DNA from: Hemileia vastatrix
Taxonomy: Eukaryota; Basidiomycota; Pucciniomycetes; Pucciniales; Zaghouaniaceae
DNA length: 64,000 nucleotides
Reading direction: 5' to 3'
Assembly: GCA_030280995.1 (NCBI GenBank)
Contig: JASXTE010000008.1
Coordinates: 4,235,001-4,299,000 of the forward strand
This document shows positions 19,182 through 41,842 of the stretch, piece after piece. The translations under genes and the position numbers were made by a program. The first letter of the stretch is position 1. Every line of letters starts with the position of its first letter. The notes beneath the pieces were generated by a model, which made no database searches, had not been told where the DNA came from, and was given only the letters and a program-made list of their open reading frames with translations.

Positions 19182-19692
19182 ATTGGGGGTCTTTCCTTAT
19201 ATTTTACTTATTATTTAGTATAAGCCTTGGGACGTGATTTTTACCTTAGTACAGCTCAAAATTAACCAAATATTTGGGTCTGCTGCATATTAGTGGGTCA
19301 TCATAACTCATTGATTGCGGAAAAGAACCCTTAAAATAATTGTACTAATTTTTTATCATAAAAATTAGATATTTACAGTAGTAACTGTACCCAATATAAA
19401 CCCAATTTCACTTGGTATTTGGACACCAATATAACACCCAATTAAATTGGTATTTGGCTAAAGCTTGGTAAGCTAATTATTCACCCTTATAGAGGTCTAG
19501 TTAAAATTATTATTATATTTTTAACAGATTTTTTTGAATTTTTTTTACATTTTATTTAAATAAATAAAGATATAAATTCAGGGTAAGCTCCATTGCTTTT
19601 TTATTAGTAATATATTTGCTAATATTATTTGTCTACTAATTCAATAGAGTTTTTTCCTTTTGTAGACGTAAAATATTGTCATTCTGAACAAT
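19182..19692 (+). other. Leader of element B, no gene seen
   Basis: About 510 bp between the 5' LTR and the first ATG at 19693. It contains two short related segments with TTGGTATTTGG (near 19410 and 19450) but no ORF or RNA gene I recognise. Confidence 0.55.
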
Positions 19693-19777
19693 ATGAGTGC
19701 TCCCCAGGATAGTGTAAGTGAAAAGCCTGCTTATAATACCAGGTCTAAAGCTAACAAAAACTTTCCAGGACATCACC

Positions 19778-20239: not shown

Positions 20240-22428
20240 GTAAATTACCCTCTCAGATTGGAAATAATACTGATAATTACAATATAGGTAATTCTATTGA
20301 TGTTAAATCTGTACAAAAAATAGAGGAGGATTTAAGAAATTTAGGTTTTAGAGTAGATACACCTGACTTGTCTTTTGTCCACAATAACAGTACTATATAC
20401 AATGATAATAAAGTTAATCCTCAGTTGCAACCACCTACTAGTGAGATGAGAAGTTCACAGGAGAGTGAGAGAATTAAAAAGGTGGACATGGAATATTTTA
20501 ACAATAATCCAACTGTCCATAGAATTGTTTCAGCATTGTGGAATAGAATGACTGATTGTGAGGAACAGACAGTTAAGCTCACTAGTGATAAAATTTCATC
20601 CTTGACATTGAATGTTTCTCAATTAGCAACACGTAATAAAGAATTAGAGAAAGAAAATTTGTCTCTAACTCTTAAATATGATTCATTGAGTAATAAATAT
20701 AATGACCTTTTCAAAAAATTTTGTGAGTTAGAAAAATTATATGAAACACATTTATTAAAAACTGAATCAAGAACAAAGTTATCTTTTGCACAGACAAATC
20801 AAAGTGTCTCTGAGTTGCTACAAAGATTAACTAAAGTTGAGATTGAAACTTCCAATCTACTAATGAACCAGGATAATCATAAGTATAATCAATATAATAA
20901 TAATCCTTTCATTGGCAAAAGTGAATCTCATTCCTTCCCTATACCACCACAATTAAAACCATCTGTTGGTAGTGTCAAATCTGAAAATGTAAGTCACAAA
21001 TCCGTGCAGGAAGAAATACAAGACCATTTATCAAAAGTGAATGCGTTGTTGAATTTACCTAAGATTAGTGAGATAAAATCCAATCAGAAAAACTGGCCTA
21101 AGATAGATCAGTACCCAACTTATGATGGGGAAGCCAGCTCTGATTGGCAACATTTTATTCAAAGAATTGACAACTTGAAATTCTCATATAAGTTACCAGA
21201 TGAAGAGATAACATCAAAATTAATTTCTTTATTTAAGGATGTTTCTTTATTATGGTTTGAAGCTGTCTTAAGTGAGGGTAGAGACTACTCTTGGGCTGAA
21301 TGGAAACAACTTATTGAAAAACTATTTGGAGGTTCTAAATTCAGGCTTACTCAGCAGAGACTTTATGAGAAGACTAGGTATAATCCGTTGAATGGTGACA
21401 AACCTATGGTATTTTTAATGAATTTAAACAAAATATTAAAAGCCATTGAGCCTCATATGGATTTTAACTTATGGAAAGATAAGATAATATACAAATTACC
21501 TATATCTGTCAGAGACATTGTTGTAGCTAGAACATTAAATGTTACTGAATATTCTGACTTTATTAATATTTGCAATGAAATATTATTAAACCATAAGTAT
21601 GAATCAAGGTATTCCACTTATAAGCAAAATGTTGAACCTGTAAAAACTCAGAATTCAAAAACACTTCAGGAGAAGCTGAAAAAACCTACTGCACCTGTAG
21701 TACCTAAAAAGTATGAAACAAATACTTGTTATAAGTGTAACAAACCTTGGGTCAAAGGTCACAAATGTGAGAAAAGCATAAATATTGTTGAAAATCAACG
21801 TGAATCTGAAACTGAAACTGAGAAAAGTAAAGAATCAAGTGATTATGACAGAAATATCTCATATAGTGATGAAAATGAAGTCTGTATGTTGGAAAATGAT
21901 TTGTCAATCTTTGAAAATCCAATATTAAATATGGACTCAAATGAATCTTTAATGAATTTTGAGGATGCTGAAATCATTAAGGATATACAAGCTGATAACT
22001 TTAGAATGACACCTATCACGGTTCCAGATATCATTTCTGGTGAAAATGTTAATATAGTATTGGACACAGGAGCTGCTGGTTCAGTTGTTTCCACTAATAC
22101 ATTACAGAAAATTGATAGTGAATATAAGTTTAAGCTTGAACCACTTCAGAATAAAAATTGGAGAGGTTTTGGATCAGTACTACACCCCATTGGTAAATAC
22201 AAAGCTGCTGTTTTCTTTAAACACCAACATGGTTATGTAAGGGTAACTTGTGACTTTGTAGTAATGGATAATACTAATTGTAGTAACTGTTTTATCATTG
22301 GAAATGATATTCTGACTAAATTTGGTGTAAAATTAGACCCTGCTAATAACAATTTTACAATTGGCATGAATGGTAAAAGGAAATTTAAAAAAATTCTTTT
22401 AACACAGTCTTACACATTGAGTCAGTAA
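20203..22428 (+). CDS. gag: Gag-protease polyprotein of chromovirus B
   Basis: An intact frame of about 740 codons. It has no ATG at the expected junction: the codon matching A's ATG is TTG at 20233, and an upstream GTG at 20203 opens the frame. Residues about 100-220 are coiled-coil-like (LTLNVSQLATRNKELEKEN). Residues about 300-480 form a retrotransposon capsid-like region (SDWQHFIQRID, WAEWKQLIEKLFG). A zinc knuckle C-X2-C-X7-H-X-C lies near nt 21725-21770 (CYKCNKPWVKGHKC). A retropepsin active site D-T-G-A lies near nt 22060-22075 (VLDTGAAGSVVS). The frame stops at 22428; pol follows in another frame. Confidence 0.88.
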   Translation: MPKIRTGNHPLVSKLPSQIGNNTDNYNIGNSIDVKSVQKIEEDLRNLGFRVDTPDLSFVHNNSTIYNDNKVNPQLQPPTSEMRSSQESERIKKVDMEYFNNNPTVHRIVSALWNRMTDCEEQTVKLTSDKISSLTLNVSQLATRNKELEKENLSLTLKYDSLSNKYNDLFKKFCELEKLYETHLLKTESRTKLSFAQTNQSVSELLQRLTKVEIETSNLLMNQDNHKYNQYNNNPFIGKSESHSFPIPPQLKPSVGSVKSENVSHKSVQEEIQDHLSKVNALLNLPKISEIKSNQKNWPKIDQYPTYDGEASSDWQHFIQRIDNLKFSYKLPDEEITSKLISLFKDVSLLWFEAVLSEGRDYSWAEWKQLIEKLFGGSKFRLTQQRLYEKTRYNPLNGDKPMVFLMNLNKILKAIEPHMDFNLWKDKIIYKLPISVRDIVVARTLNVTEYSDFINICNEILLNHKYESRYSTYKQNVEPVKTQNSKTLQEKLKKPTAPVVPKKYETNTCYKCNKPWVKGHKCEKSINIVENQRESETETEKSKESSDYDRNISYSDENEVCMLENDLSIFENPILNMDSNESLMNFEDAEIIKDIQADNFRMTPITVPDIISGENVNIVLDTGAAGSVVSTNTLQKIDSEYKFKLEPLQNKNWRGFGSVLHPIGKYKAAVFFKHQHGYVRVTCDFVVMDNTNCSNCFIIGNDILTKFGVKLDPANNNFTIGMNGKRKFKKILLTQSYTLSQ

Positions 22429-22459
22429 CAAATTCCCCGTCTAAAGGAAGAGAATCCAA

Positions 22460-25400
22460 TGAGATGGAACTTCTGGAAACAGAAATTTCAAAACATCATT
22501 TGGCACTCGGATATGTGAAACTGAGAAAGATAATATTTTGGAATTAATTAAAGCTTTTCCAATGGCTTTTGCACATGGTACAAATGAACTTGGCCTTGTA
22601 AAAGATCATGAAATGAAGATTAGTTTAACCTGTGATATGAATAATATTCCTGCTAGTCTTAAAAAGAAACCATACCCTGCTTCACCAATGAAGAGGAAAG
22701 ACATAGAGGATAATATTAAGATGTTATTAAAAATGAACATTCTTTAGAAGGTTGAAACTACACCAAAATATTGTGTAATATCACCAGTGCTAATTTCTTA
22801 TGAACAAGATAAAGCAAGACTGTGCGGTGATTATAGAGCATTAAATACATTTACAGTAGATGATATTTATCCCTTTCCAAGGATTGCCTCTATACATGCT
22901 ACCCTTAAAGGTGCTAAATATATAAGTTGCCTAGATGGAAATAAAGGGTACCATCAAATTCCTGTTGAAAAGAATTCACAGAACTTTTTGTTGATAACAA
23001 CACACATGGGAATCATAAATATGTCAGAATGCCATTTGGACCAAAAAATGCTCCATCAGTATTTCAGAAGTTAATGGATATAACATTCCATAATGAAATG
23101 ATTGAGGGAAGGTTAATGGTATACATTGATGACATCATAGTGTTCTCTAAAACTTTTGATGAACACTTAATCCATTTAAGGAAAGTATTTCAGAAAATGG
23201 ATGAAATAAAAATGACCCTTGCATTGAAAAAATGTAAATTTGGGTTTGAATCTTTAAAAGTGCTTGGTCATATTGTATCTGGCTTACAAGTATGTGTAGA
23301 CCAAAATAAAGTGGCTGCAATAAAAAATATTGGCATTCCTCAAAATGTGAAGGATGTACAATCTTTTCTTGGAATGTGTGGTTATTATAGACAATATATA
23401 AAAAACTACCAATCAATTGCTGCACCACTGACCACACTGATAAAGAAATCAGAAGCTTTCATTTAGAATAATGAAAGACAACAAGCTTTCAATAAGTTGA
23501 AGGAATGTTTAATGACAGATCCTATCTTGGGATTACCAGATTTCCAATTACCTTTTGTATTATATACAGATGCAAGTTTTATTGGACTGGGTGCTGCTTT
23601 ATATCAAAAACAACTTATTGAAGGTAAAATGTCAGAAGTAGTAATCTGCTATATTTCACGTACTCTGAGAAGTAGTGAATTGAAATATGGTGCTACTCAA
23701 CTTGAATGTTTGGCAGTAGTATGGGCTCTTGAAAAGCTACATTATTACCTTGAAGACCAAAAATTTGAGTTAATAACTGACTGTAGTGCAGTTAAGTCAC
23801 TCTTAAACATGAAAACTCCTAATAGACACATGTTTAGATGGCAATTAGCTGTACAAGAATACAGAGGACGGATGACTATTACACATAGAGCAGGAACCTT
23901 GCACTCTAATGTAGATCTGTTATCTAGAGTACCTCTGCCTAATAATGATGATAATTCTGCTTATGTTCCTGAGCCAGAGATTATTAGCATTTATGGCATT
24001 TATATTGTAGATCTTGAGGATGAATTTATGCAATCAATTCTTGATAATTATAATTCAGATCCTGACTTAAGTAAATTAACTACAATATTAAATGATCCAT
24101 CTAATGCTTCAATGAATGTTTTAATAAAAACATTACCAATTAAGTATAAAGAGGCATTAGAAAAAGGAAAATTTTCGATTGAGGATGGTTTTATATATTA
24201 CAGGAAAAAATTAAGTAATGTAATTGTAATTCCCCCTTCAATGAATGAGTTAATGTTAAGTATATGTCATGCTGATATATTAGCAGGTCATTTTGACTAC
24301 CATAAAACATTAACCAGAGTAAAAAACACAGCTTGGTGGATTAACATGTCTGAAGATGTTCAGAAATATGTTGAAACATGTGATTCTTGTCAAAAATATA
24401 AAAGATTAACAGGAAAAAGAGCTGGTTTATTACAACAAATTGAGCAACCAAAAGCTCCATGGGAAATCATTAACATGGACTTTGTAACAGGTTTGCCAAT
24501 AGCAGGGCATAAGAGTTATAACTCCTGCTGGGTAATTGTAGATAGATTTACAAAGATGTGTAAATTTATTCCTACCCACAAAGAGGTTTCTGCAAAGGAC
24601 TTAGCTTTTTTATGGTGGACACAAATGTTAAATACAGCAGGTTTCCCCAAAGCAATAGTTTCTGACAGAGATCCTAAATTTACTTCTGAGTTCTGGACAT
24701 CACTTATGGATGTTTCAGGGTGTCAATTAAAACTTTCTACAGCACACCATCCACAAACTGATGGGCTAGCAGAAAGAATGATACAAACCTTAGAAGATAT
24801 GATAAGAAGATACTGTGCTTTTGGTCTTAATTTTAAAGACAATGACAAATTCACGCATGATTGGGTAACCCTTATCCCAGGTTTAGAATTTTCATTTAAT
24901 AGTACAGTACATTCTGTCACTGGCAAAAAGCCATTTGAGTTATGGTTGGGTTATGTACCTAATACCCCTGCTAAAACTCTTAATAAGTTACCTAGATTGG
25001 ATAGTCATCCAGGTACTAAATCTTTTCTTCAGATGCAGGAATTATGCAGAAAACATGCTCAAGAATGTATAAATAAGGCTTTTGAGTATGAAAAGAAAAG
25101 ATGGGATAAAGCCCATAAAGAACAAATGTTCAAAGAGGGTGATGAAGTCCTTATTTCAATGCTACATTTCAATTTAAATGGTAAAGTTAAATTGAAGGAT
25201 CCATTCATTGGACCATTTGTAGTTAAAAAGATGGTTGGTAATAATACTGTTGAGGTTATTCTATATGCACCATATGATAGAAAACATCCAGTATTTCCTA
25301 TTTCTCTTATAAAACCATACCATTCTAATGATACTGCTCTATTTCCAAGAAGATCAGGAAGGCATAAACAGCAACCTGAAGAAATAGTGGAAAAGGCAGA

Positions 25401-25557
25401 AATTGAAAAGATACTTAAAAAGAGACACCTTACTAAAGAAAAGGGAGTTGAGTATCTATTAAGATTTAAAAATAAATCAAGTGAATATGACCAGTGGATT
25501 CCAGAAAATGAAATCTCTGATCTTAAAAATCTCTTGAAAAAATTTAAATCTAAATAA
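22460..25557 (+). pseudogene. pol: Pol of chromovirus B: RT, RNase H, integrase, chromodomain
   Basis: RT begins at about 22530 and includes the catalytic Y-I-D-D (MVYIDDIIVFSK, near nt 23122). RNase H follows (LYTDASFIGLG, QLECLAVVWALE). The integrase has a zinc-binding H-H-C-C region (CDSCQKYK near 24380) and a catalytic D-D-E: Asp in INMDFVTG, Asp in VSDRDPKF, Glu in TDGLAERMI. Then come GPF-type residues (DPFIGPFVV) and a C-terminal chromodomain-like segment (YLLRFKNKSSEYDQWIPE). Lesions are TAG at 22745-22747, a one-base loss near 23008 before RMPFGPKN, and TAG at 23464-23466 where Trp is expected. From 23497 to 25557 the frame is intact (686 aa). Chromodomain integrases target heterochromatin in known chromoviruses. 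Confidence 0.9.
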
Positions 25558-25657
25558 TACTGTTCATTCAGCATATGTATTATAAAAATTATTATTATTT
25601 ATTTTATTATTTCACTCCTTAGTTTTAATTAAAATGTCTTAACATTTTTTTATGTTT

Positions 25658-25675
25658 TTTTTTGGGGTGAGGGAG
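25658..25675 (+). promoter_or_regulatory. Polypurine tract of element B
   Basis: After a T-run, GGGGTGAGGGAG lies immediately before the 3' LTR. It is the expected plus-strand priming site. Confidence 0.75.
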
Positions 25676-26852
25676 TGTGAGCCTAAATATCCTTAGGACT
25701 GAGTATTTCTTATGCTTAAAATAAGATAAACTTAAGTAGATTAAGCTTATATCTTAAAAATAAGGTTAAAATAATAATATATATTATTTGATTATATATA
25801 TATATAATTATTATTCTATTATATAATTTACAATAGTTTAAATAGCTTATCCATGGCCTAATAATATTTATTAAGGTGTTAATGGAGTCATAATATACTT
25901 ATCTTAAGTGATATGAAGTAATTATTGACATACATAAGCTTATATGTATACATTAATCTCATATTCAGTGAAATATGCAGTATATTATGTATATTTAGGT
26001 ATATAAGTGGGTTTTAGCCCCTTAATAGCCTATAACCTTTGTTTTTCTGCTTATTTTAGGTCATATTGACGAAATCAGTGGACTCACAACGCCTATAGAA
26101 GCATAGACACCTATATCAGGCGCATACACCCAGTTTGGACAACTCAAATTACTTCCTTGGATGGTTATTCACGGATTTATGGGTTGGAAGGATGTTTCTG
26201 GGTTAATATGGATTCTTGGGGATGTTATTGGGGGATTGGAAATTTTATTTTTTTCCTTTATATGCTTTTAGTTTCATTAAATCTCTTTTTGATTATTTAT
26301 TTTACCTGTTTCTTTATGGTATCCGCTTTTATCTGGGTTTTCTATTTATGGTATGGATCTGTGTTATTATTAATAGTGATGGAGGGTCCTTACTGGAGGT
26401 CTTGGTGTTGAAACTTCTTGAAGTGGACGCCATGGGGAGGTGATGAGCCCTCACAGTGCTGTAATTGCCGGGGATAGCAGTGACATCATCTGGATTGAAG
26501 GTCTGTGCACTCCAGTGGATTCGGGTATAAGTAAGAAGGGATTTTGACGGTTTATTATAATCATTCAATTACTACAACTCAAACAACCACCACAATACAA
26601 TTATTAGCATTCAGAAATATATTATAAAGCCCTTATAAATTGATATTATCTTTATATAAGCTATAACTATATTTTATTCTTCTATTTTCCACCACTAGCA
26701 CGCATTTAAATCCAAGTATTGTGAGTTTTATTTGAGTATAACTATTCTAATAGTCTTTCCCTGAGGTTTAATAACTAAATCATTTATCAATAAGTAGTAG
26801 GACCATAAAATAACACTATTATATCATACTTATATACTAGACTATACTGACA
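25676..26852 (+). repeat. 3' LTR of element B
   Basis: It begins TGTGAGCCTAAATATCC and ends ACTGACA at 26852, followed by the TSD TCCTC. It is colinear with the 5' LTR. Visible differences include TGTGAGCC against TGTCAGAA at the start. Confidence 0.9.
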
Positions 26853-26965: not shown

Positions 26966-27227
26966 ATGAATACCAGAAGAACTAATCCTAACACTGAAAA
27001 TACTGCCAACGTCATGGACACAATTCGACAGTTCGTGCGCACTCAGCCCCCTGCTGCTCCACCAACAACACCCATAACTACACTGATGGGTGGGACAAGA
27101 TGCACCGCTGCATCAAAAATGGCATAACTACTTGTCATTTCTCAAAAGCCCGCCGTGGAAATAATTTCTTCACTGTAAGTTATCTTCACTTTCCTTCCTT
27201 GTTGTTACTAAAATTTCATTACTTTCT

Positions 27228-27259
<32 letters not shown>

Positions 27260-28014
27260 CAGTCATGCGATTACTGCAAGCAACACAAGAAGAAGTGTAG
27301 CTACATTGGGCCTCCCACTGTTGCTTGTCTAGACCCTGATGCTTCAACCTTGACTATGATGAGTCAAATGATTATCAAGCGCCCAGCCTCACAACAAACG
27401 AGCTAAGGTTGGTTACCGTGCTCCTACGCCTAGTAGCGCCTCTTCGACCCCCAGATCTCTCTTCTGGGAGGAAAGTACAGTAAGTCTCTTTTTTTTTTTT
27501 TTTTTTTTTTTTGGGTTGAAATGCTAACATCTTCTGTTTTCCTCTGTTTTAGAATGCACCAGGCACTCCTTACGCTGAAACACCTCTGCCTCCTATTGCT
27601 CTCTTATTCCTTCCTGCCTTGTAAGAAGATCCCGTCTGGGATACCAAACCTATTCCAGAGTGTTCTTCTTGAATACCTTCTCCTGACTGGACTACGATGC
27701 AGCCGGTCTTTCATACCATTATCCCGGACGAATGGCCTATCGAAAACTTCCCGGTTGTCAATGATGAAGAGCCTGCCATGGCTCAAAACTGGGAATTTGC
27801 AGAGCAAATCGCCTGCACTCCATACGATGCGACCATGCGTCCTATGAACAATATGATAGCTGCTGTCAAAGAATTCCTTGAGGGGGTTCCGGTTTATACT
27901 TGCACTGAGTATGATAAACAAAAACAGCTGATAACTGCCTTGCAACGAAACATGCAAGAGGCTGTTAACGACTGGGCTTTCTGTGTCCCATTCTTTGAGG
28001 AAGCAGAATACTAA
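26966..28014 (+). pseudogene. Antisense cargo gene 1 (zinc-cluster-like), D copy, degraded
   Basis: It lies on the plus strand inside the 3' region of the minus-strand element D, and is homologous to 31204-32250. Exons are 26966-27174, 27263-27479 and 27553-28014. Introns have GTAAGT donors and CAG/TAG acceptors; both have expanded T-runs. The protein starts MNTRRTNPNTENTANVMD, as in the other copy. Compared with that copy, one base is missing in the first cysteine pair (near 27105), exon 2 has a 20-nt net loss, and exon 3 has a TAA near 27620. The second cysteine group CDYCKQHKKKC is intact. The last 105 codons (27697-28014) remain open. A TATA-like CATAAATAC lies about 80 bp upstream of the ATG. 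Confidence 0.75.
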
Positions 28015-28378
28015 AAAAAAAAACTTTCTTGTATATAATTCTTGTAAACTGTATGTAGGTAAGAAAAATTTAATATTATTTATTCTCCATTAATTTTCCT
28101 GTGAGAATTCTACAACAGCAAGATGAGTTGCCTTCAAAGAATATCATACTCTTGAGATTGTTGCTACTTCCTAAAACAAAAAATACTTCCTCTGCGTCGT
28201 ATATGCGTGCGCTTTTTACAATCTTTAGATCTTCGCAATACATGTCTTTCCCTTGATTGTAACAATTCATCTTTCCTTGGGTCCTTCATTATGACGAACA
28301 CTTTTCACTTTCTTCTTAGAAACCATCCAGCGCTCAAGTCAGACGTGGCACAACTGATGACTTCTTTATAATGCTATT

Positions 28379-28400
28379 GTTAACCTATAAATAGCCCTTC
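28379..28400 (+). promoter_or_regulatory. TATA box of antisense cargo gene 2, D copy
   Basis: CCTATAAATAG lies about 35-45 bp before the ATG at 28432 and is preserved in the C copy (near 32697). It supports an independent plus-strand promoter inside the element. Confidence 0.6.
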
Positions 28401-28431
28401 TAATAACCTGAATTTCCTCTATCCTAACATC

Positions 28432-29209
28432 ATGACTCAATATTGCACAGTTCCCAGAGATCAAGCTTGCTCATTTTTAAAACGCCGTAACTTTCATTGT
28501 ACATTTTCTAGACCTCGGAGGTATGCCTCTTTTAGACCTTCCTGTGACAATTGCTTTAGGTACCACAAAACTTGCAATACCTCCCTTAACCAGAATACTC
28601 CTCAGCCTACTGGTTATATTCGCTTTCCACCTAGCTCAACTAGTAGCGCTCCCATAATTACCACCACCAGTCCCACTATTTCCACTAATAATAATAATGT
28701 TCCTTATGAGTCGCCTTTGCTTCCTAGTTTTCCCAGGCGCAAAATATCCATACAGCCTAGCGCTACACCTTCTTCCATGCGCTCAGGCTCCACTTCAGCT
28801 GCTCCTGACGCCGTTACCGTTACTTCGCCGTCTGCACGCCCACAAAACTTATTAGCAAGTAAGTATCCTTTACTATACTTATGCTCCTCTTGCTTACTAA
28901 CTTCCTGTCAGGCTTCAATGAATACATCTCCTTGAGATGGGTTCCTACTCCTTTACCCTTTGTCAATTCCATGCAAATGTTTTCCAGACTTCGTCTTATA
29001 TATGACGCTATGTCCTATCCTACAATAACGCACCAGCTTTTTCTGACGCTGAACTTGAAGCTGGCTATTCTCATATAGAAATGATAGGTAAACTAATGAA
29101 CGAAATCAGCTCATCAACTATTCTTTGACTCCCTGCCAATCCCCGTCGCTTTGTCATGCCTGAAGACTGGAGAGGATATCCTATTAGCTTTCACTCTGAT
29201 ACTGAATAG
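28432..29209 (+). pseudogene. Antisense cargo gene 2 (zinc-cluster-like), D copy
   Basis: Exon 1 runs 28432-28858, the intron 28859-28911 (GTAAGT donor, TTACTAAC branch, CAG acceptor), and exon 2 from 28912 to the TAG at 29207-29209. Exon 1 encodes MTQYCTVPRDQACSF, then a second cysteine group CDNCFRYHKTC (C-X2-C-X6-C), then a Ser/Thr/Pro-rich region. One Cys of the first group is Arg (KRRN against KCRN in the other copy). Exon 2 has a one-base loss near 29018 and a TGA at 29126-29128; both sites are intact in the other copy. Conserved C-terminal motifs are SDAELEA, HIEMIG and MPEDW.GYPISFH. The pattern resembles small fungal Zn2Cys6-type proteins; the function is unknown. Confidence 0.7.
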
Positions 29210-29752
29210 CTTACAAGTGCTTTTCCTTATGAGCCTCCTCTTTCCATTCTCCCTGTACATATTCTTTGTATATTTTTCATGCTATGCCTACACATAATCT
29301 TTTTAGACATGGCGCTATTTTATTACACCTGTCTTCCATACTTTTAGAGCGCCTAACTTTTCTCCCTCTACTTTCTTCAAAAGACTGTAAACCCAAACAA
29401 AAATCATAAATAAACCTTCATATCGTAAAATGTTACCACCTTTACTGCGATACAGTGATATACCATGTAGAATAAGAATTGAACTATAGAGTGCCTCATC
29501 TATAAATCGATGATACACATCGCCTTTAATCCAATTACCTATTTTGTCATGTCCCCTTGAACAATGAAAGTATAAGATTACATTTTCCTCTGCTCCCTCA
29601 TCTAAGCACTTGTGCCAGTTTCCTGTTCAGCCATAGTCCGCCTAAATTCCAGTTAGCGCCCTCTATCCATCACAACTGTGTCAAAAAGTCTCCTGTGAGT
29701 CCTCTTAGAAAAACAAAACTTAACATAACTTGTTAGTTTAACCTCTTCCCGG
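29210..29752. other. Non-coding end of the D 3' region
   Basis: It is homologous to 33543-34140 in C. No gene is seen. It ends in AGTTTAACCTCTTCCCGG, the first half of a CCTC/GAGG motif that C interrupts. Confidence 0.6.
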
Positions 29753-31085
29753 TGTAGACTGTTCTAAAGTACTAAGCAGTAGACACAATGCAAGATGGGT
29801 TGGTTCTCCTTTTTAATTTATAAAAAGAAGCGCCTGCCACTCTTATTTTTAAAGACAGTGTAATAATGTGTAACACTAATATTTGAATAGAAAGTTTATA
29901 AGTTGAGATAAGTTAAAGATAAGAAACAAGTACTACTATCTGGATATTTCTATTCTTAACAAGTGCTATTATCCACAGCTACTCCCTCTTGAAGCGCTCT
30001 CTTTGGATATGCTATATTATAGTAATAAAATATCTCTAATAATAGTTAATCCCACTGAATCTATATATTCTCCCTATGTTGCGCTCTTTCACTATACTAT
30101 ATTAAATACACACACAGACGCACAAAATCTAAAGACTCAGAAAATACCTTTTAATATTCTCTCAAACAATTAATCAAAAAATATCTAATATCTAATACTG
30201 GGTACTATGACTATAGCTACACGTATATCTCTATATTGATTTTTCTATGATCTGCTTTTTAAAATGACAACTAATGCGATTTTTCTTATTTTATTAACTA
30301 AATAGATAGATCAACCAGTTCTCTCTTTTGTCCCTACCTAATAGTCCTCCTTTTTATATTCTTCCAGCGCTCAAGACACAGTTCCCTAATGGATCTCAAG
30401 CGCTGACTCTAGCGCCACATTAGTAAAACAATAACTAATTTATTAGTATTCTACTTACACTGCTTGCAACAACTACAGCGCCTAAATAAGACCCTATAAT
30501 TACGAACACTAGTATTAACTTGTTTCACTGATTCTCCACATATGCGCTTTTAACTATACCTTGTTTTGTTTCAGCGCTAGTTCCAGGTTTGACTTATCCT
30601 AACGCTGCGTCTAGTTGCCTTAACTCTTAGGTAATTTTACGATTGAGTCCCCACTCTCTTTGCTTTAATACTAGGTTCATAGTTTTGACAGCTTGCTTAA
30701 CTAGTTAGCCTTCTTCATTACTTGTCTCAGTAAGCTTCCCAACTGGCCGCGGTACAGTATACTATGCACTTGAGTCGTCCTTAAGCCATAACTCCTTCTT
30801 TAATGGGTAATGCACAATTATTTGAAAATCCAAATCCATATTGTTTAGCGCTTTATGCTCTTAAATCAATAACACACAATTCCCCATTGTGCGGCACATC
30901 TTGCTACAAAATCCGAGCGCACAGACCCTCAATCTTTTTCCGCATTTCCATTTCCTTTGTTCCTTGAAACACACAAATACATATTATATTTTAACATTTA
31001 CTGCTGCCCTAACTCCCCTTTGTTCTTCCTGGACTATGCGCTCTGATTGGTCTAAAATCACGCTTCCTGCGAGGCGCGTACCACA
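29753..31085 (-). repeat. 3' LTR of element C
   Basis: In the forward direction it reads TGTAGACTGTTC to GCGTACCACA. It is near-identical to 39320-40653. On the minus strand it starts TGTGGTACGCGCC, with a CCAAT box about 35 bp in. Confidence 0.9.
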
Positions 31086-31112
31086 TCCTCCCTCTACTTG
31101 CGACTGTCCCCA
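31086..31112 (-). promoter_or_regulatory. Polypurine tract of element C
   Basis: On the minus strand GGGGACAGTC...GAGGGAGGA directly precedes the LTR start TGTGG. E has nearly the same arrangement (GGGGACATTC...GGAGGGAGGA), linking the two families. Confidence 0.75.
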
Positions 31113-31203
31113 GGAGCCCCTAAATATTCTGCGTTTCGCAGAGTTTTCTTTCTCCTTCTTCTATCCTTTTCTCTTATTATCTTTATTATTTTTATCTTTC
31201 ACA

Positions 31204-32250
31204 ATGAATACCAGAAGAACCCCTCCTAACGCTGAAAATACGGCCAACATCATGGACGCTATACTACAGTTCATGCGCACTCAGCCCCCTACTGCTTCCC
31301 CAACAACGCCCATAACCACACTGATGGGTGGGACGAGATGCACTCGTTGCATTGAAAATGGCATAAATCCATGTCATTTTTCAAAAGCACGCCATGGCAA
31401 TACTCTCTTCACTGTAAGTTCTCTTCATTCTTCTTCCCATTTGTTACTAACCTTTTCATTTTTCATTTATTTTTAGTCTTGTTATTACTGCAAGCAACGC
31501 AAGAAGAAATGCAGTTAGGATGGGCCTCCCACTGTCGCGCGCCTGGACCCAAATACTTCTACACTAAGTATGATGAGTCAAATGGCCATCAAGCGCCCAG
31601 AACCTGCTCCTGTTACCCCACCTGGTAACAAACAAACCAAGGTTGGTTACCGCGAGCCTACTCCTAGTAGCGTCGCTTCTGTCACTAAATCTCTTTTCTC
31701 GGAGGAAAGTACAGTAAGTTTCTTTTTCTTACTTCTTCCCTTTCTAACACTAACATTCTCTCTTTCCCCCTTTTTTTTTATGTAGGATGCACCAGGTACT
31801 CCTTATGCTGAAACACCTCCGCCTCCTATCACTCCACAATTCCTTCTTACCTTGGAAGAAGATCCCGCCTGGGATACAATGCCTACTCCCAAACCTACTC
31901 CTTGTTCGCCCACTCCTGACTGGTCTGATATGCAGCTGGTCTTCAATACCGTCACTCCAGTCAAATGGCCAACCGATAACTTTTCGGTAGTAGATGACGA
32001 TGAGCCCGCCATGGCTCAAAACTGGGAATTCACAGAAAAAATTGCCTGCGCTCCTTACAATGCGACCATGCGTCGTATGAATAACATGATTGGGGCCGTC
32101 AAAACATTCCTCGAGGAGGTTCCGGTTTATACTCGCGCTGAGTATAATAAGCGAAAACAACTAATAGCTGCCTTGCAACAAAACATGCAAGAAGCTGTTA
32201 ACAATTGGGCTATCTGCGTCCCAATCTTTGATGAAGCAGAATACTACTAA
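31204..32250 (+). pseudogene. Antisense cargo gene 1 (zinc-cluster-like), C copy, one nonsense codon
   Basis: This is the better-preserved copy. Exons are 31204-31413, 31477-31713 and 31786-32250, all phase 0, giving 303 codons. Introns of 63 and 72 nt have GTAAGT donors, TTACTAAC/CACTAAC branch sites and TAG acceptors. Across the first intron the cysteines read C-X2-C-X7-C-X14-C-X2-C-X6-C (RCTRC...PC, then CYYCKQRKKKC). This is close to the fungal Zn2Cys6 binuclear cluster, usually a DNA-binding domain in the nucleus. The C-terminal 150 residues (NMIGAVKTFLEEVPVYTRAE, QEAVNNWAICVP) are unrecognised. The only visible lesion is TAG at 31516-31518, where the other copy has TAC. It lies antisense between the 3' LTR and pol of C, 119 bp from the LTR. 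Confidence 0.78.
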
Positions 32251-32689
32251 AAAATATTTTCTTTTGTATTTATTTCTTGTAATGTATATAGCCTTGTAAA
32301 AAAATGTAATATATATTTATTTATTTCTATTATTATTTTCACTTAACTTTTCTGTGAGAACTCTACAACCGCGAGATGAGTTGCCCCCAAAATATCATCC
32401 TTTTTCTAAACAGCGCACCCTTCTACTAAGTGCCTATGAAAGATGAAACCACAAATAATAATAATAAAAACATGAGATTGTTGCTACAGCAATTACTTCT
32501 CCTGCATCATTTACGTATGAACTTTCTTTCAATCTTTAAACCTTTGCAATAAATGCCTTTCCCTTGATTGTAACAATTCATTTTTCCTTGGGTTCTTCAT
32601 TATGAGAAACGCTTCTTGCTAGCTTCTTAGAAACCATCCAGGGCTCAAGTCAGACGTGGCGCAACTGATGAATTTTTTATAATGCTATT

Positions 32690-32712
32690 GTTAACCTATA
32701 AATAGTCCTTCT
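32690..32712 (+). promoter_or_regulatory. TATA box of antisense cargo gene 2, C copy
   Basis: CCTATAAATAG lies about 40 bp before the ATG at 32743. It is identical in the core to the D copy, although the surrounding sequence has diverged. Confidence 0.6.
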
Positions 32713-32742
32713 AATAACCTGAATTTCCTCTATTCTAACATC

Positions 32743-33542
32743 ATGACTCAATATTGCACAGTTCCCAGAGATCAAGCTTGCTCATTTTTCAAATGCCGTA
32801 ACTTTAACTGTACATTTTCTAGACCTCAGGGTTATGCATCTTTTAGACCTGCCTGTGAAAATTGCTTTAGATACCACAAAACTTGAAATACCTCCCTTAA
32901 CCAGAATACTCTTCAGCCTACTGGTTATATTTGCTTTCCACCTAGCTCTACTAGTAGCGCTCCCATAATTACCACCACTAGTCCCACTATTTCCACTAAT
33001 AATAATAATGTTCCTTATGAGTCGCCATCACTTCCTAGTTTTCCCAGGGGCAAAATATCCATATAGCCTAGCGCTACACTTTCTCCCCCTCCGAGTTCCA
33101 GTGCTTCCATGCACTCAGGATCCCCTACAGCTGCTCCTGACGCGGTTACTGTTACTTCACTGTCAGCACGCCCACAAAACTTATTAGCAAGTAAGCATCC
33201 TTCACAATACTTATGCTCTTCTTTCTTACTAACTTCCTGTCAGGTTTCAATGAATCCATCTCCTTGGGATGGGTTCCCATTCCTTTACCTTTTGTCGATT
33301 CCATGTGAATGTTTTCCAGACTTTGTCTTATATATGACGCTATGTCCCTATCCTAAAATAACGCACCAGCTTTTTCTGACGCTGAACTTGAAGCTCTCTA
33401 TACTCATATAGAAATGATAGGTCAACTTATGAACGAAATCATCTCAACAACTATTCTTGGATTCCCTGCCAATCCCCGTCACTTCTTCATGCCTGAAGAC
33501 TGGAAAGGATATCCTATTAGCTTTCATACTGATACTGAATAG
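32743..33542 (+). pseudogene. Antisense cargo gene 2 (zinc-cluster-like), C copy
   Basis: Exon 1 runs 32743-33190, the intron 33191-33243 (GTAAGC donor, TTACTAAC branch, CAG acceptor), and exon 2 33244-33542. The first cysteine group is complete here (ACSFFKCRNFNC). The second is CENCFRYHKT followed by TGA (32884-32886), where the D copy has the last Cys. Further stops are TAG at 33064-33066, TGA at 33305-33307 and TAA at 33354-33356. The D copy has sense codons at all four positions. The C-terminal part stays in frame where the D copy is frameshifted (ILGFPANPRHFFMPEDW). The gene follows cargo gene 1 by about 490 bp on the same strand. Confidence 0.7.
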
Positions 33543-34142
33543 ACCACTAGCACTTCTCCTTATGAGTCTCCTCTGTCCATTTTTTCCGTAAATAGTCTTC
33601 ATATATTTTTCATGCTATGCCCTCAAATAATCTTTTTAGACATGGCACTATTTTGTTACACCTGTCTTCCATACTTTTAGTGCGCCTAACTTTGCTCCCT
33701 CTTCTTTCTTTAAAAGACTGTAAACCCAAAAAAAAAAAATCATAAATAAACCTTCATATCGTAAAACTTTAAGGCCTTTACTACAATACAGCAATATACT
33801 ACGTAAAATAAGAATTGAACTGTAGAGCGCCTCATCTATAAATTGCTATTCAAATCCTGGTTAGTTAACCCATTAGCTAAATCCCCAACATCTTTTGCGT
33901 TTACATGATACACATCTCCTTTAATCCAATTACCTATTTTGTCATGTCCCCTCGAACGATGAAAATAAACGAGATCATTTTCTTCTGCACCCTCATCTAA
34001 GCGCTTGTGCCAGTTGCCTGTTCTGCCATAGTCCGCCTAACTTCCAGTTAGTGCCCTCTATCCATCACAACTGTGTCAAACGCCTCCTGTGAGTCCTCTT
34101 AGAAAAAGAAAACTTAACATAACTTGTTAGTTTAATCCTCTT
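33543..34142. other. Non-coding sequence between cargo gene 2 and C pol
   Basis: I see no gene. Near its right end lie two CCTC/GAGG motif copies (about 34134-34152 and 34164-34185), the second encoding the end of pol. Confidence 0.55.
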
Positions 34143-35302
34143 CCCGGAGGTATTATTCTGGTAGTTTTTCCTCATTCCGGAGGCTATCTTGTATCACTGG
34201 AACACCCCCTGGGTAGAATCTTTTGATCTGGTCTGTAGCCACACGCCGCTTCCACTCAGTACCATCTAATTCCTCAAGTAAGTAAGACCCTCCAGTTATC
34301 TGCTTTCTTATCCTATAAGGACCATTCTATCTGTCAGAAAACATCTTCCCCCATTGGCTTTCTAAACTTCTATTATAAACCAAAACCAAATCTCCTGGAT
34401 TCAATGACTTCCTTAACCTATGCGCTAAGCGCTCATCCCAATATATAAATGACTTGTCCTGGATCTGCATCATTATTTCATACGCTTTCTCCACAAACTT
34501 GTCTTTTCTTTCAAGTTGCACTACCCTTGCTAGAATTAAATCTTCGGTTGAGCGCACTTGATCCCAATCACATCCTAGGAAAGATCCAGCCTCTAGATCA
34601 ATAGGTAATACCGCCCTTTGACCAAACATAAGCTCGAATGGCAAAAACCCTGTTGTCCTTTTAACCGAAATCCTGTCGGCAAACAAAACTAATGGCAAGT
34701 AGTTCTTCCACTTCGCCCCATTATTTCCACATAACTTAACTAGCGCATCTTTATAACTTGATGCCCTCTTTCTACCATTCCCTCTGCTTCAGGATAATAT
34801 GATGTTTCAACTCGTAACTTTGCGCCAATACCTTTTACTACTTCTTGGAATTCTCCCGCAAATTCAGCGCCACCATCTACGGTTACCATCTTCATTACCC
34901 CATACCTATATATCCATTCTTTCTTCAAAAACTCGGCCACATTACTTGCCTTGAGGTTTATCAATGGTGCTGCTTAAACCCATCCTGATAGATCATCCCT
35001 GGCTACTACCAGGTATTTAAAGCGTCCTTCTTTTATATGGACTGCATCTAAACTGACCCTACCAAAAACAGTATCCTTGCCTGTTGCTCTCACTTTTTCT
35101 TTTGGCTTTCTGTAACTTCTGCGCAGGCATTCAGGACAAGATTTAACCAATCTCTTAATTCATTTTTCATGTTGGGCCACCAGAATCTTTCCCTAACTCT
35201 GCAATGAGTCTCATCTTGACCTCTATGTCCTAAATTCTCATGTAACTCCCTGAGTATCTTCTCCTTCCCTTTCATAGTTTGAATAACTAAGTGATGAGAC
35301 AA
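34143..35302 (-). pseudogene. pol: Integrase of element C
   Basis: Fragments are 35302-35090 (zinc-binding part: LHENLGHRGQDE, then a frameshift in the CXXC region), 34964-34740 (core: TVDGGAEF and AEGMVERGHQ, giving the second Asp and the Glu) and 34698-34327 (C-terminal). Past a TAG after MFSDR come GPYRIRK and the end LRNEEKLPE. The core resembles E and D. Several frame changes make it non-functional. Confidence 0.82.
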
Positions 35303-35317
35303 TTCTTGATTCTTCCA

Positions 35318-37087
35318 TCACTTCCCATTTTTAATAAAATAGCCTTTAGCGCACCTTTTAATATTGCGCCAAACCTTTTTATCACAAAAATTTGGTTGGC
35401 TATTACCTTCCAAATATAACTTTAACAACTCTACTCCCTCATCTGTAGATGTGTTGTCTTCTAAATACTCCCCCTCTTTGAGTTGAGTACTACTATCCTG
35501 ACTTCCCTTTGAAGAATCTCTATCATCTGACTCCTCCACTTCCTCGCCTTGCGCACTCCTTGTCGCTACATTAGCTTCAGTGTTCCCTAAATCCAGTTGC
35601 AGTTCAACATTGCTACAAACATCCTTTACATTGTCAGCTTTTAATTTTATGTCTTTTCGGACATTCCTTGTTACTAGTTTATTGTCATCACGGATAATAC
35701 TACCTACTAGTTTATGGTCTTTGCGGACATTCTTGCTTGATAGTTTATTGTTGTTGCAGACGTTCTTGCCAAATTTTGTATAACAATAATCTATCCCGTT
35801 TAACCATCTCTTATCTTCTTCAAATTCTTCCTCTTCCAAGTCTTCGTCACACAACGGTCTTCTCAACAGCACATCTGGAATAGTGAAAGATTTCCCTGGC
35901 TTATGGACTAAATGAAAAGAAAACAAATTAATCTGCGCTACCCACCTTGTCATGGGCGCATCTGGTAAACTCAGGCTACTAATCATTTGCACCAACGATA
36001 GCGCATCAACCTGCAGCTCAAAATGCTTCCCCCAAAGAATCCATTGTAGCTTATTAAGGATCTTTGCTACTCCACATAACTCCAGCTTGTACTGGGAGTA
36101 CCTAGACTCCACTTTGGTAAAAGTCTTGGACTCGTAAAGGACAGGTCTATTATTACCTTCTTTGTCCTCCTGCATCAAAACTGCGCCCACCGCGGACACA
36201 CTAGAATCCACCACTAGAGTAATTTTTCTAGCGCCTTGTCCATACTTTAATTTCTTCAAAAGAATATTTTTTCCTACAATCCTCTTTAATAACTCGAAAG
36301 ACTCCTCACATTCCTCTGTCCAATCCCACACAACATCCTTTCTTGTTAAGAGCCGTAAAGGCAAAGACATCAAAGCAAAATCTTGAATAAACATTCTTAC
36401 ATATGTACAAATGCCTGAAAACCCTCTAACTTCCTTAGTATTTCTTGGTCTTGGCCATGTAAGTTCCTTATTCCTCTGTTTTTCAGTGATGATTCTCCCT
36501 TCCTTACATACCACATGTCCCACTATATCTAGCGCTGGAACACAACAAGCAAATTTAGACCCAGAAATCGTTAATCCTGCCTCTTCTATCCTAAATAGCA
36601 CTCTTTCCAGGGTAATCGCATATTCCCAAATAAACTTTCTAATATATGGATTTTCTTTTAACACTTCCCCTTCATAATCACTGTCTGGTCCTATTATACC
36701 GCCATCATCAATGAAAATTCCCACATGTTCTGGGATTTCATCCTTCAATATCCACATCATCTGTGCTTGATATACCGCCACAGAATTTGTTGCGCCTTTC
36801 AGTAACCTTGTCAACCTAAAGCGCCCCAGTGGTGTTTCAAACGTCGTCATGGGTCTGGACAATTTGTCCAACTCGCGCTCATCATATCCTCCCATAATAT
36901 CACCTAATCCGTAACATGCACGTCTTGCAAAAGATTCAACAAATTCTTCTGGCGTTGGTGCCATCCCTACATCCTTTACCGTAACCTTGTTCATCTCCCT
37001 AAGATCATGAACAACCCTTAATTTACCATTATGTTTGACCACACAAAGCACTGGACTTGAATAACTAGATATAGACTGTTCATACAA
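35318..37087 (-). CDS. pol: RT-RNase H polypeptide of element C (589 aa, open)
   Basis: The longest intact frame of C. It contains an RT core (GDIMGGYDERELDKLSRPMT, then IFIDDGGI with both catalytic Asp residues near residue 120) and RNase H (LVVDSSVSAVGAVLMQ, then FELQVDALSLVQMI). An acidic/Asn-rich linker with KNVRKDHKL/RNVRKDIKL repeats follows, then a conserved ELLKLYLEGNS...KKVW segment before the integrase. The stop TGA at 35318 replaces the TTA seen in D (NGKLWKNQ). It has no N-terminal partner in frame because the segment upstream is broken. Reverse transcription would occur in the particle. Confidence 0.85.
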   Translation of the reverse strand: MYEQSISSYSSPVLCVVKHNGKLRVVHDLREMNKVTVKDVGMAPTPEEFVESFARRACYGLGDIMGGYDERELDKLSRPMTTFETPLGRFRLTRLLKGATNSVAVYQAQMMWILKDEIPEHVGIFIDDGGIIGPDSDYEGEVLKENPYIRKFIWEYAITLERVLFRIEEAGLTISGSKFACCVPALDIVGHVVCKEGRIITEKQRNKELTWPRPRNTKEVRGFSGICTYVRMFIQDFALMSLPLRLLTRKDVVWDWTEECEESFELLKRIVGKNILLKKLKYGQGARKITLVVDSSVSAVGAVLMQEDKEGNNRPVLYESKTFTKVESRYSQYKLELCGVAKILNKLQWILWGKHFELQVDALSLVQMISSLSLPDAPMTRWVAQINLFSFHLVHKPGKSFTIPDVLLRRPLCDEDLEEEEFEEDKRWLNGIDYCYTKFGKNVCNNNKLSSKNVRKDHKLVGSIIRDDNKLVTRNVRKDIKLKADNVKDVCSNVELQLDLGNTEANVATRSAQGEEVEESDDRDSSKGSQDSSTQLKEGEYLEDNTSTDEGVELLKLYLEGNSQPNFCDKKVWRNIKRCAKGYFIKNGK

Positions 37088-37788
37088 GCCGGACTTTAAC
37101 CTTCTCCTAAGTAATTCTGTATACTCTTCTCTTATAGCCCAGGTATTGAAAAAGCCTTCTTTTGCCAGGGCGCATGAGGTATAACTGGAACAATATAAGG
37201 TTTACCATAAGAGTGTTTTAACAAACCTCTTTCCTCTTCTGAAAATGCAATAGCCTTTTCCCTAAGAACCATAACATGTAATAATAATTTCTTTATCTTC
37301 CTGCAATAACCAGCCCTCTGGTCCAAAATCTACCATCTGGAGCCTTTCCATTGTGATCTTACTGGTGAACGCAAAATCAGGCGGAAACTTTGTTAAAGGT
37401 GTATCATAAGGATTTCTAGATAGTGCCGGCCTCTGCAAAAGAGGATTCAAATCAGGCATCGCTATATTCACTGGTTTAACCTTAACAGCTACTGGTTTAT
37501 ACTTAGATGCAAAACAGTCCTTACTGCTTCCTTCATTAATTAAAATAAAACCCTTTCTAATAAAACTACGGGTTGAACCTGAATCCTGTTTTTGTCTTTT
37601 ATTTTTAATATAAGTATAACAATATCCATAATTAAAGAAATCAAAAAGCTTAGGTATAATACATTCTACAGTGGTATCCCCAAGACACCTATGAAGTACC
37701 GCTTTACGTATCCCTCCTTGTTGGACTGACTGGTCACTATCCGGGTTCTTCTCATCTTGGGAGATAGTAACACCTAAAATGCCAGTCC
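37088..37788 (-). pseudogene. Protease-RT linker of element C
   Basis: Fragments resemble the segment before RT in E and D: LNPLLQRPALSRNPYDTPL at about 37460-37400, then VDFGPEGWL and EEERGLLKHSYGKPY. Frames change several times. No domain is recognised beyond this conserved pre-RT segment. Confidence 0.65.
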
Positions 37789-39071
37789 CTAATGAAAATG
37801 CTGACGCCTTCCTGGCAGTCGCCCTATCTCCTCATCTGAGACTTCCTCATAAAACTCTCTTTCTTTCTCTAACCGCGCAGCTCCAGAGTACTTAGTTTCC
37901 CAGCCACCATCCTTGGGTGCTACAAAGACTGATGTTACTGGAACACCATCATCACCCGTAATCCTTATTCCTTTAGTTTTATTTAAACAATAATCTATAG
38001 TTGCCAAATAATCCATTAAAAATGGCGTGCCTAAAACTGGTTTAACTTCACACATTGGAACATAAAAATGTATATCTCTTGTTGCTCCCGCAACTCTAGT
38101 GCGTACATACTCTGCTACACTTATAACAGGTAACCTACCTCCCCCGATTCCTGCGACAGTGCCTTCGCCGTCTTTTACAGAAAGACCTAATTCCACTGCA
38201 AAGTTTGAGGAGAACTCTTGGGCCTAAACAATTCTTTCGCTTTTGCCGCTTCAACTATCTTCTTCTCCAACTCATCGATTCTTGCCATGACTGAATCTGG
38301 ATCTTTAGAGAGAATTTTATCTTTAGGAGACGAGATCTGAGAAGGAAATTGTACGCCTGGCGCATCTTCCCCCATATCCTCATTATCCAGAGCCATCCTT
38401 GCTGCAAGTTGCTCAACTCAACGCAACTTCATTTCAGCTTCCACTGCCATTTCTACTTCTTCTAATCCGGGGTACTTATAATTTCTGTCCCTCTTTTTAA
38501 CCAACTTTCCTTCGTTATCCAAGCGCCTTTTTGCCCAGTCTTCAACTTCTGGCGCTAACACTTCACAAAACCAAGGTAACAACGCATTAACATCACTAAA
38601 ATCTTTGTTACTAAATAAATATTCTGCTATCCAATCAAATTCTTCCCTAAAAATTTTAAATTCCTTGGGGTCTCAAACACCTCCTCTAGCCTTGACCCTA
38701 TTTACCAAAATATCCAGGTCCTTCATTGTAAACCTAGTTTCATCGGTAACCTTTGGCCATTTCTTGAGCATTTGTTCTTTTAGCGCTGACCAATTTTGCT
38801 CCTCATGCCCTTTTAAATCCTCTAAATCATCTTTTCACTCATCAGATACAAAGAATAGTACTTGTCGTACCATATCATATTCGGTTGCTCCATGAAATTC
38901 CGCTGCTTGTTCAAACCTGCGTAAAAACTTTTTGGTATTAATTCCCGCAAAGCGCAAGCTTTCATCTTTACACCTAATAATTGTGGTTACCGTTTTTGGA
39001 AACGATGTCGAAGAATTGGGCGATTTAACCCTCTCCTGACATCCCCTAGATGTAGTCGCAGTAGGATCCAT
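37789..39071 (-). pseudogene. gag: Gag-protease of element C with a 1-kb internal deletion
   Basis: Gag starts at 39071 (MDPTATTSRG) with a capsid-like segment (INTKKFLRRFEQAAEFHG). In-frame TGA codons lie near 38835, 38672 and 38416. At about 38196-38206 the sequence jumps from the Gag linker (KSSPQTL) straight into the protease flank (ELGLSVKDGEG). D keeps about 1.02 kb here containing the zinc knuckle, the region that follows it and the protease D-T-G. The junction shares only GC with both sides. The remaining protease part runs to 37789. Confidence 0.8.
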
Positions 39072-39299
39072 TCCCGAAATATCAAATCCAAGAAAAGATC
39101 ACAAAGAAAAAAACACACTCTTGGTTAATTAAACCTGACTGTTTTCACAATACATCCCTACGCTATCCTCTGATAAAGGCTATTGATCCACTTGTTGTAG
39201 ACCCTACGACTCTTCCGCTGAAGCGCCGGCTTGATAACTTCCTCTTGATGAAACCCTAATAAACCAAACAATCTAATCAAAAACACTAGTTACAATTAT

Positions 39300-39319
39300 G
39301 CTACTGTTGGGACACCAAT
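39300..39319 (-). promoter_or_regulatory. Primer-binding site of element C
   Basis: On the minus strand TTGGTGTCCCAACAGTAG begins one base after the LTR end. D has TTGGTGTCCCCTACAGTG at the same place. Confidence 0.72.
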
Positions 39320-40653
39320 TGTAGACTGTTCTAAAGTACTAAGCAGTAGACACAATGCAAGATGGGTTGGTTCTCCTTTTTAATTTATAAAAAGAAGTGC
39401 CTGCCACTCTTATTTTTAAAGACAGTGTAATAATGTGTAACACTAATATTTGACTAGAAAGTTTATAAGTTGAGATAAGTTAAAGATAAGGAAACAAGTA
39501 CTACTATCTGGATATTTCTATTCTTAACAAGTGCTATTATCCACAGCTACTCCCTCTTGAAGCGCTCTCTTTGGATATGCCTTATTATAGTAATAAAATA
39601 TCTCTAATAATAGTTAATCCCACTGAATCTATATATTCTCCCTATGTTGCGCTCTTTCACTATACTATATTAAATACACACACAGACGCACAAAATCTAA
39701 AGACTCAGAAAATACCTTTTAATATTCTCTCAAACAATTAATCACAAAAGATCTAATATCTAATACTGGGTACTATGACTATAGCTACACATATATCTCT
39801 ATATTGATTTTTCTATGATCTGATTTTTAAAATGACAACTAATGCGATTTTTCTTATTTTATTAACTAAATAGATAGATCAACCAGTTCTCTCTTTTGTC
39901 CCTACCTAATAGTCCTCCTTTTTATATTCTTCCAGCGCTCAAGACACAGTTCCCTAATGGATCTCCAGCGCTGACTCTAGCGCCACATTAGTAAAACAAT
40001 AACTAATTTATTAGTATTCTACTTACACTTCTTGCAACAACTACAGCGCCTAAATCAGACCCTATAATTACGAACACTAGTATTAACTTGTTTCACTGAT
40101 TCTCCACATATGCGCTTTTAACTATACCTTGTTTTGTTTCAGCGCTAGTTCCAGGTTTGACTTATCCTAACGCTGCATCTAGTTGCCTTAACTCTTGGGT
40201 AATTTTACAATTGAGTCCCCACTCTCTTTGCTTTAATACTAGGTTCATAGTTCTGAAAGCTCTCTTAACTAGTTAGCCTTCTTCATTACTTGTCTCAGTA
40301 AGCTTCCCAGCTGGCCGCGGTACAGTATACTATGCACTTGAGTCGTCTTTAAGCCATAACTCCTTCTTTAATGGGTAACGCACAATTATTGGAAAATCCA
40401 AATCCGTATTGTTTAGCGCTTTATGGTCCTAAATCAATAACACACAATTCCCCATTGTGCGGCACATCTCGCTACAAAATCCGAGCGCACAGACCCTCAA
40501 TCTTTTTCTGTGTTTCCATTTCCTTTGTTCCTTGAAACACACAAATACATATTATATTTTAACATTTCCTGCTGCGCTAACTCCCCTTTGTTCTTCCTGG
40601 ACTACGCGCGCTGATTGGTCTAAAATCACGCTTCCTGCGAGGCGTGTACCACA
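39320..40653 (-). repeat. 5' LTR of element C
   Basis: 1334 bp, colinear with 29753-31085. It ends in forward orientation at CGTGTACCACA, immediately followed by the TSD copy CCTG and the D pol sequence. Confidence 0.9.
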
Positions 40654-41815: not shown

Positions 41816-41842
41816 AGCTTGATTCTTCCATAACTTCCCATT

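Follow-up and report, generated by a model that had tools for sequence, protein, structure and literature searches.

Antisense, intron-bearing genes for Zn2Cys6-like proteins, probably one accessory family, in Ty3/Gypsy retrotransposons of Hemileia vastatrix

Background

Extra genes encoded antisense to pol have been described in long terminal repeat (LTR) retrotransposons, and their function has been unsettled for years. The plant Gypsy elements Grande, RIRE2 and Retand are described as carrying antisense extra open reading frames (ORFs); the TRP28 proteins of Retand are predicted to bind DNA, and the region of this element between pol and the 3' LTR often includes tandem repeats (PMC11963269; PMC7264820). 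Among fungi, the Boty-like elements of Botrytis cinerea are reported as LTR elements with an additional antisense gene, brtn (PMC7264820; PMC8365987). HTLV-1 is a retroelement with an antisense-encoded nuclear protein, HBZ (PMC11963269), and the VANC proteins of the VANDAL transposons recognize short motifs that have accumulated in their own family (PMC5735166; PMC10398659). In this work we analyzed 64,000 nucleotides of the basidiomycete Hemileia vastatrix (assembly GCA_030280995.1, contig JASXTE010000008.1, positions 4,235,001 to 4,299,000; hereafter the window), in which two Ty3/Gypsy elements, C and D, carry a pair of intron-bearing genes, g1 and g2, on the strand opposite to pol, and a sister element, A, carries a third one, gA. 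The three genes probably encode one family of accessory proteins; in this Ty3/Gypsy lineage they lie in antisense orientation in the interval that separates pol from the 3' LTR.

Antisense extra genes are already known from the plant elements Retand and Grande and from the fungal Boty elements; the six-cysteine, intron-bearing set described here is a new variant. The likeness to Grande, RIRE2 and Retand lies in the antisense extra ORFs, and the difference in the six-cysteine domain and in the presence of two genes in C and D. Introns are conserved in the present set and are unmentioned in the main text of PMC11963269 on the plant elements. In Pfam searches (E up to 10, and E up to 0.5) none of g1, g2 and gA matched the Retand TRP28 family (PF04195). 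Boty, compared by description only, shares the combination of a fungal LTR element with an extra antisense gene. HBZ, whose mRNA is spliced, is alike in being encoded antisense in a retroelement and differs in being retroviral and a basic leucine zipper (bZIP) protein; no homology is claimed. VANC serves as a model for element proteins that recognize motifs, of which only a motif excess is read from the sequence here; the VANDALs are DNA transposons, whereas C and D are retrotransposons. Elements with additional ORFs are reported from bdelloid rotifers as well. A literature search covering titles and the beginnings of abstracts found no description of antisense zinc genes in fungal LTR elements.

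In the fungal set coding constraint is strong and the introns are conserved. It also offers a candidate DNA-binding domain, a candidate target motif and two sister families for comparison, and thereby makes a regulatory hypothesis testable; it is also a clear case of intron-bearing genes carried intact through an RNA intermediate. An earlier, sequence-only reading of the window had recognized the genes, their introns and their layout, all of which stand; it had passed over the broken state of the window copies, the antisense gene in A and the richness of C and D in GCGC.

Results

Two antisense genes between pol and the 3' LTR

The LTR elements of the window are nested in one another; they were delimited by BLAST of the window against itself. 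Element C (16739-61446, pol on the minus strand) is inserted in A, and is in turn interrupted by B (18005-26852), D (29753-40653), F (46916-59129) and a solo B-type LTR (59936-61111). As the sequence-only reading had it, C possesses two LTRs, the left one at 16739-17999 and the right one fragmented, from about 46799 to 61446, and the 5-bp target site duplication (TSD) ACGTT, read by eye, stands on either side. Element D, also with pol on the minus strand, has LTRs at 29753-31085 and 39320-40653 that are 97.4% identical, a 4-bp TSD with a single mismatch (CCGG/CCTG), and reverse transcriptase (RT) and RNase H recognized in Pfam; it is without 1025 nt that are present in C at 44646-45670, a segment in which a CCHC knuckle and a DTG protease motif can be read. 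The C/D elements show the RT, RNase H, LTRs and short TSD of the Ty3/Gypsy group.

In both elements g1 and g2 lie on the plus strand between pol and the left LTR, the 3' one for a pol on the minus strand; this arrangement was recovered by the self-comparison. In D, g1 (31204-32250; exons 31204-31413, 31477-31713 and 31786-32250) corresponds to 303 aa with one in-frame stop, and g2 (32743-33542; exons 32743-33190 and 33244-33542) to 248 aa with four. In C, g1 (26966-28014; exons about 26966-27174, 27263-27479 and 27553-28014) has frame-changing indels, and g2 (28432-29209; exons about 28432-28858 and 28912-29209) has both frame-changing indels and stops. Every copy in the window is therefore broken. 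The TATA-like sequence proposed for each gene is visible upstream of g1 and of g2, at the level of sequence. Open frames are found elsewhere in the 747.6 Mb genome: in the sample of copies, the frame is open in six of 21 for g1 and in eight of 20 for g2; among these open copies, one g2 is without a start codon, one g1 has an altered acceptor of intron 2, and several are without one motif cysteine.

Genome searches returned 1025 candidates for the g1 of D, 1132 for the g1 of C, 7557 for the g2 protein and 3942 for gA, counts that are unverified as copy numbers. Of these candidates, 40 were scored for the g1 of D, 40 for the g1 of C, 150 for g2 and 40 for gA. Those scored for the g1 of D, the window copy among them, all match at 90% identity or more, which puts the observation beyond chance. 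The layout was read at 20 loci, the next best matches to the g1 of D, a sample that is not unbiased for elements because its loci were picked by similarity to g1. At 18 of the 20, g2 comes after g1 in the same orientation; an LTR of the same family is found at the expected side in 18/20 (16 full and two partial, one of the latter about 1.2 kb off), and pol of the same family runs antisense to the genes at 16/20. Many copies thus carry the antisense genes inside gypsy elements, although loci located through the genes themselves do not give the family-wide share. The recurrence of the order LTR-g1-g2-pol at separate loci bears out the proposal that the genes belong to the element and have moved with it.

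Selection on g1 and g2

The ratio of nonsynonymous to synonymous substitution rates (dN/dS) was estimated pairwise, with three open D-type copies per gene as one side of each pair and with stop-bearing codons dropped (1-6 per pair). For g1 it is 0.50-0.81 against the D copy of the window (dS 0.07-0.14), 0.27-0.39 against five C-type copies (dS 0.39-0.51), and 0.18-0.22 against L042 and L043, two divergent copies found among 12 low-identity g2 matches (dS 1.05-1.37, near saturation). For g2 the values are 0.53-0.81 against window D, 0.39-0.48 against window C and 0.19-0.20 against L042 and L043 (dS 0.78-0.90); intron divergence from these two copies is 0.39-0.47. Such a drop with distance is expected, because dead copies drift while the active lineage is selected. 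In 20 recent copies of g1 (window C excluded), shared variants gave 0.54 and singletons 1.07 (Fisher p = 0.008), amino-acid changes being depleted.

With a dN/dS of about 0.2 against two divergent copies, g1 and g2 are read as protein genes that were selected while the element was active, and purifying selection in the active lineage is strongly indicated by these sequence comparisons. Against the divergent copies, both genes show the coding conservation by which antisense extra ORFs (aORF-3R) are judged. The sequences are neither confined to one locus, since copies occur elsewhere, nor free of coding constraint.

Conservation of the introns

The introns proposed at 31414-31476 and 31714-31785 in g1 and at 33191-33243 in g2 are placed exactly as the sequence-only reading had them, and they are conserved among copies. 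Both introns of g1 are found at identical places in 27/27 copies (21, and six further ones, L042-L047), and the g2 intron is in place in all 22 aligned copies (20, together with L042 and L043). Single-site exceptions concern g1 intron 2, which has a GC donor in L022 and an altered acceptor in L026; the length of this intron varies through a T-run while its donor and acceptor are constant. In the D-type g2 intron, TACTAAC precedes the acceptor in nearly every copy. Conservation of this kind supports the view that the introns are real.

It had been argued that the introns outlast retrotransposition because the genomic RNA would hold them as the reverse complement, where no splicing takes place. 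The argument predicts that spliced copies should be missing, and no genomic match to a probe for the spliced g2 exon junction was found when as many as 3 mismatches were allowed, the control being the copies read, which have their introns in place. One copy, L037, which is the best g2 protein match, was considered as an intron-less spliced copy and rejected; what it shows instead is the loss of about 100 nt that include the intron.

A third gene in the sister element A

Element A has pol on the plus strand and occupies 61447-64000 and 9978-16738. The RT pieces of A and F are 68-74% identical to D at the protein level, as against 23-30% for B; on this basis A and C/D, both of which carry genes, are sister families. 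Directly inside the 3' LTR of A lies a spliced antisense gene, gA (62666-63783, minus strand, intron 63079-63147), of which only the 3' part is present and the six-cysteine N-terminus is missing in the window. Eight copies of gA were read: the N-terminus is found in seven, the frame is open throughout in one (487 aa), and the 69-nt intron is present in all eight. Shared variants among them gave 0.55 and singletons 0.97, on few sites (45 shared variants in total).

The three proteins have in common the pattern Cys-x2-Cys-x6/7-Cys-x14/15-Cys-x2-Cys-x6-Cys, which reads CTRC-x7-C-x14-CDYC-x6-C in g1, CSFC-x6-C-x14-CDNC-x6-C in g2 and CKQC-x6-C-x15-CDSC-x6-C in gA. In Zn2Cys6 clusters the spacing is C-x2-C-x6-C-x5-12-C-x2-C-x6-8-C, with the basic half first, and the present proteins depart from it in the linker of 14-15 and, in g1, in the x7 of the first half. 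The curated cut-off of the Pfam family PF00172 (Zn_clus) is 21 bits. Two open copies of g1 exceed it (21.4 and 23.6), whereas two copies of g2 (13.4 and 17.0), the broken g1 of D (15.6) and the broken g2 exon of C (9.2) remain below it, and gA had no match to PF00172 in Pfam at E up to 0.5. Profile positions 1-18 fall on the second half of the g1 motif and positions 19-37 on the first half of that of g2, as if the halves were swapped; in the broken g2 of C, positions 17-31 fall weakly on the second half, their usual place. The mixed scores and the swapped-half alignment led us to term the domain Zn2Cys6-like and not to assign it to the family. The resemblance to Zn2Cys6 clusters claimed by the sequence-only reading consequently holds as a resemblance, with the cut-off passed by two open g1 copies, and g2, gA and the broken g1 of D fall short.

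Alignment of profile hidden Markov models (HMMs) with HHalign gave p = 1.4e-4 and a probability of 52% for g2-gA, and p = 0.0027 and 11% for g1-gA, with six of six cysteines aligned in both; g1-g2 gave p = 0.0019 and 14%, with the last four aligned. The introns of g2 and gA are alike in lying ahead of the C-terminal part and in splitting a codon after its first base. Common descent of the three genes is likely on these sequence grounds, though not proven. An AlphaFold2 model of exon 3 of the D g1 alone has a mean predicted local distance difference test score (pLDDT) of 51.7, only the blocks at 101-130 averaging above 70; it places a strand-helix-helix-strand arrangement at residues 85-147, with helix block means of 58-86, and is unreliable in the rest. 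A helical C-terminal part is suggested for g1 by this weak model, and for g2 and gA by eye. The middle region of the proteins looks low in complexity.

Short words enriched in the elements

A survey of all 4- to 7-mers singled out the words described here. In 11 C/D copies GCGC occurs 648 times against 148 expected from a first-order model, the other NCGN tetramers being at most 1.2-fold in excess; with a second-order model the excess shrinks to 648 against 501, the GCG and CGC counts stemming largely from GCGC itself. Since the C/D copies share ancestry, they are not independent for these counts. Within the window, observed and expected counts (first-order) are 53 and 10.7 in D and 40 and 11.5 in C, with no excess in F (5 and 4.9), A (1 and 1.3) or B (0 and 0.5); in A copies they are 6 and 3.4. 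In 500 shuffles, the LTR of D at 29753-31085 has 13 GCGC against a mean of 1.9 (maximum 6), the internal part of D 40 against 8.9 (maximum 17) and the pol side of C 29 against 7.5 (maximum 17); F has 5 against 4.9, A pol 0 against 1.0 and B 1 against 0.7. Over 29753-46915 the word is 3.5-7 times more frequent than expected in the LTR, internal part and pol of C/D, and about three times in the gene zone of D. A is favoured before it and T after it, with no further preference.

In L042 and L043 CpG has mostly decayed (ratios 0.26 and 0.30), and GCGC still counts 5 against 1.4 and 7 against 1.5; eight of the ten GCGC sites of these copies in the aligned genes are common to the D type. The C-type g1 stretches L044-L047 have only 3-5 against 2.1-3.4. 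Loss of CpG amounts to 0.170 at GCGC and 0.271 at CpG sites elsewhere, with ACGT at 0.197 and ACGC at 0.203. We considered that GCGC might be kept by protection from decay after insertion, and strong protection is unsupported, the losses at ACGT and ACGC being nearly as low; for the same reason decay alone fails to explain the excess.

A different word, AGTC[TA]TGGNGGAC[TC], occurs 36 times in 29 kb of seven A copies and seven times in F, and is absent from the C/D, B and window A pieces. At 49330-49787 on the plus strand, the 3' zone of F has seven AGTC-N6-GAC(T/C) repeats with inverted half-sites. The zone at 48004-50983 consists of tandem units of 74-75 nt with AGTC-N6-GACT and related CAGTTTA words.

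Discussion

We consider the chances about even that g1, g2 and gA are element-encoded, DNA-binding regulators that act on their own family. In such a model the six-cysteine domain would coordinate two zinc ions and bind DNA; the protein would be made from its own antisense promoter and would return to the nucleus to act on copies of its family, at the LTR promoter, at chromatin or at the integration complex, while the introns would ride the genomic RNA as an unspliceable reverse complement. A more specific proposal, which we regard as improbable, is that g1 and g2 recognize the palindrome (A/G/T)GCGC(T/C/A) across their own element and counter silencing as fungal retrotransposon equivalents of VANC, each sister family (C/D on the one side, A/F on the other) evolving its own protein and motif.

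Several observations weigh against this regulatory interpretation. Both g2 and gA fail PF00172, and the HHalign probabilities are low. A search of g1, g2 and gA against 5.8 billion proteins, a set that may hold few fungi, found no relative at E up to 1. In recent copies of g2 (window C excluded) shared variants (0.85) do not differ from singletons (0.90, p = 0.86). No antisense gene was recognized in the sister element F, where one of the two looks taken was swamped by low-complexity matches. The link between GCGC and the proteins is a correlation, found post hoc among all the words surveyed, and the A-family copies L030-L036 are enriched in CCGG (31 against 8.5) and CCGC (32 against 12.4), so that enrichment in some CpG tetramer is found outside C/D too. 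General anti-silencing is opposed by the CpG ratios: A carries gA and yet has 0.13, like the gene-free B, and F has 0.45 without a recognized gene. On these values we rejected the idea that all gene carriers share an escape from CpG loss, and that of A speaks against anti-silencing of the VANC type in this family.

The coding constraint and the layout of the copies would fit any accessory function, and the proteins could act without a DNA motif, for instance in nuclear entry of the pre-integration complex, in integration targeting or on host proteins, the C-terminal part being a possible protein-binding module. We hold this for a possible but doubtful alternative, as the six-cysteine domain resembles a DNA-binding cluster and the GCGC excess would require another cause. 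A captured host transcription-factor gene carried as passive cargo is a good deal less probable. The introns and promoter-like sequence are indeed gene-like, and the host genome has proteins with Fungal_trans (24 matches, 24/24 over the cut-off, some on small, possibly foreign contigs, with none in 14 control genomes); fungal transcription factors with Fungal_trans often also carry Zn2Cys6. Passive cargo, however, would not account for selection that persists in the element over a dS of about 1, and similar genes are found in two element families, no search having been aimed at a host copy outside the elements and the genome searches being capped.

A role for antisense transcription itself, through double-stranded RNA or regulation of pol and with the proteins incidental, is among those discussed for antisense extra ORFs (PMC7264820). 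It is highly unlikely here, given a dN/dS of about 0.2 and the conservation of frames and splice sites. That separate elements were merely inserted side by side could be imagined in a window full of nested insertions; the identical order LTR-g1-g2-pol at many separate loci refutes it, and we attach next to no probability to it. The reading of the three genes as regulators of their own family keeps the even chance given above.

Other features of the window

Element B is a chromodomain Gypsy element whose LTRs are 97.6% identical, which makes it about as young as D; its CpG ratio is 0.13 against 0.64 in D. A frame of 495 aa at 9829-11316, for which no Pfam family matched at E up to 0.5, has opposite to it a minus-strand stop-to-stop frame of 198 aa at 10507-11103. 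At 7692-9793 there is an imperfect inverted repeat of 2.1 kb with arms about 80% alike.

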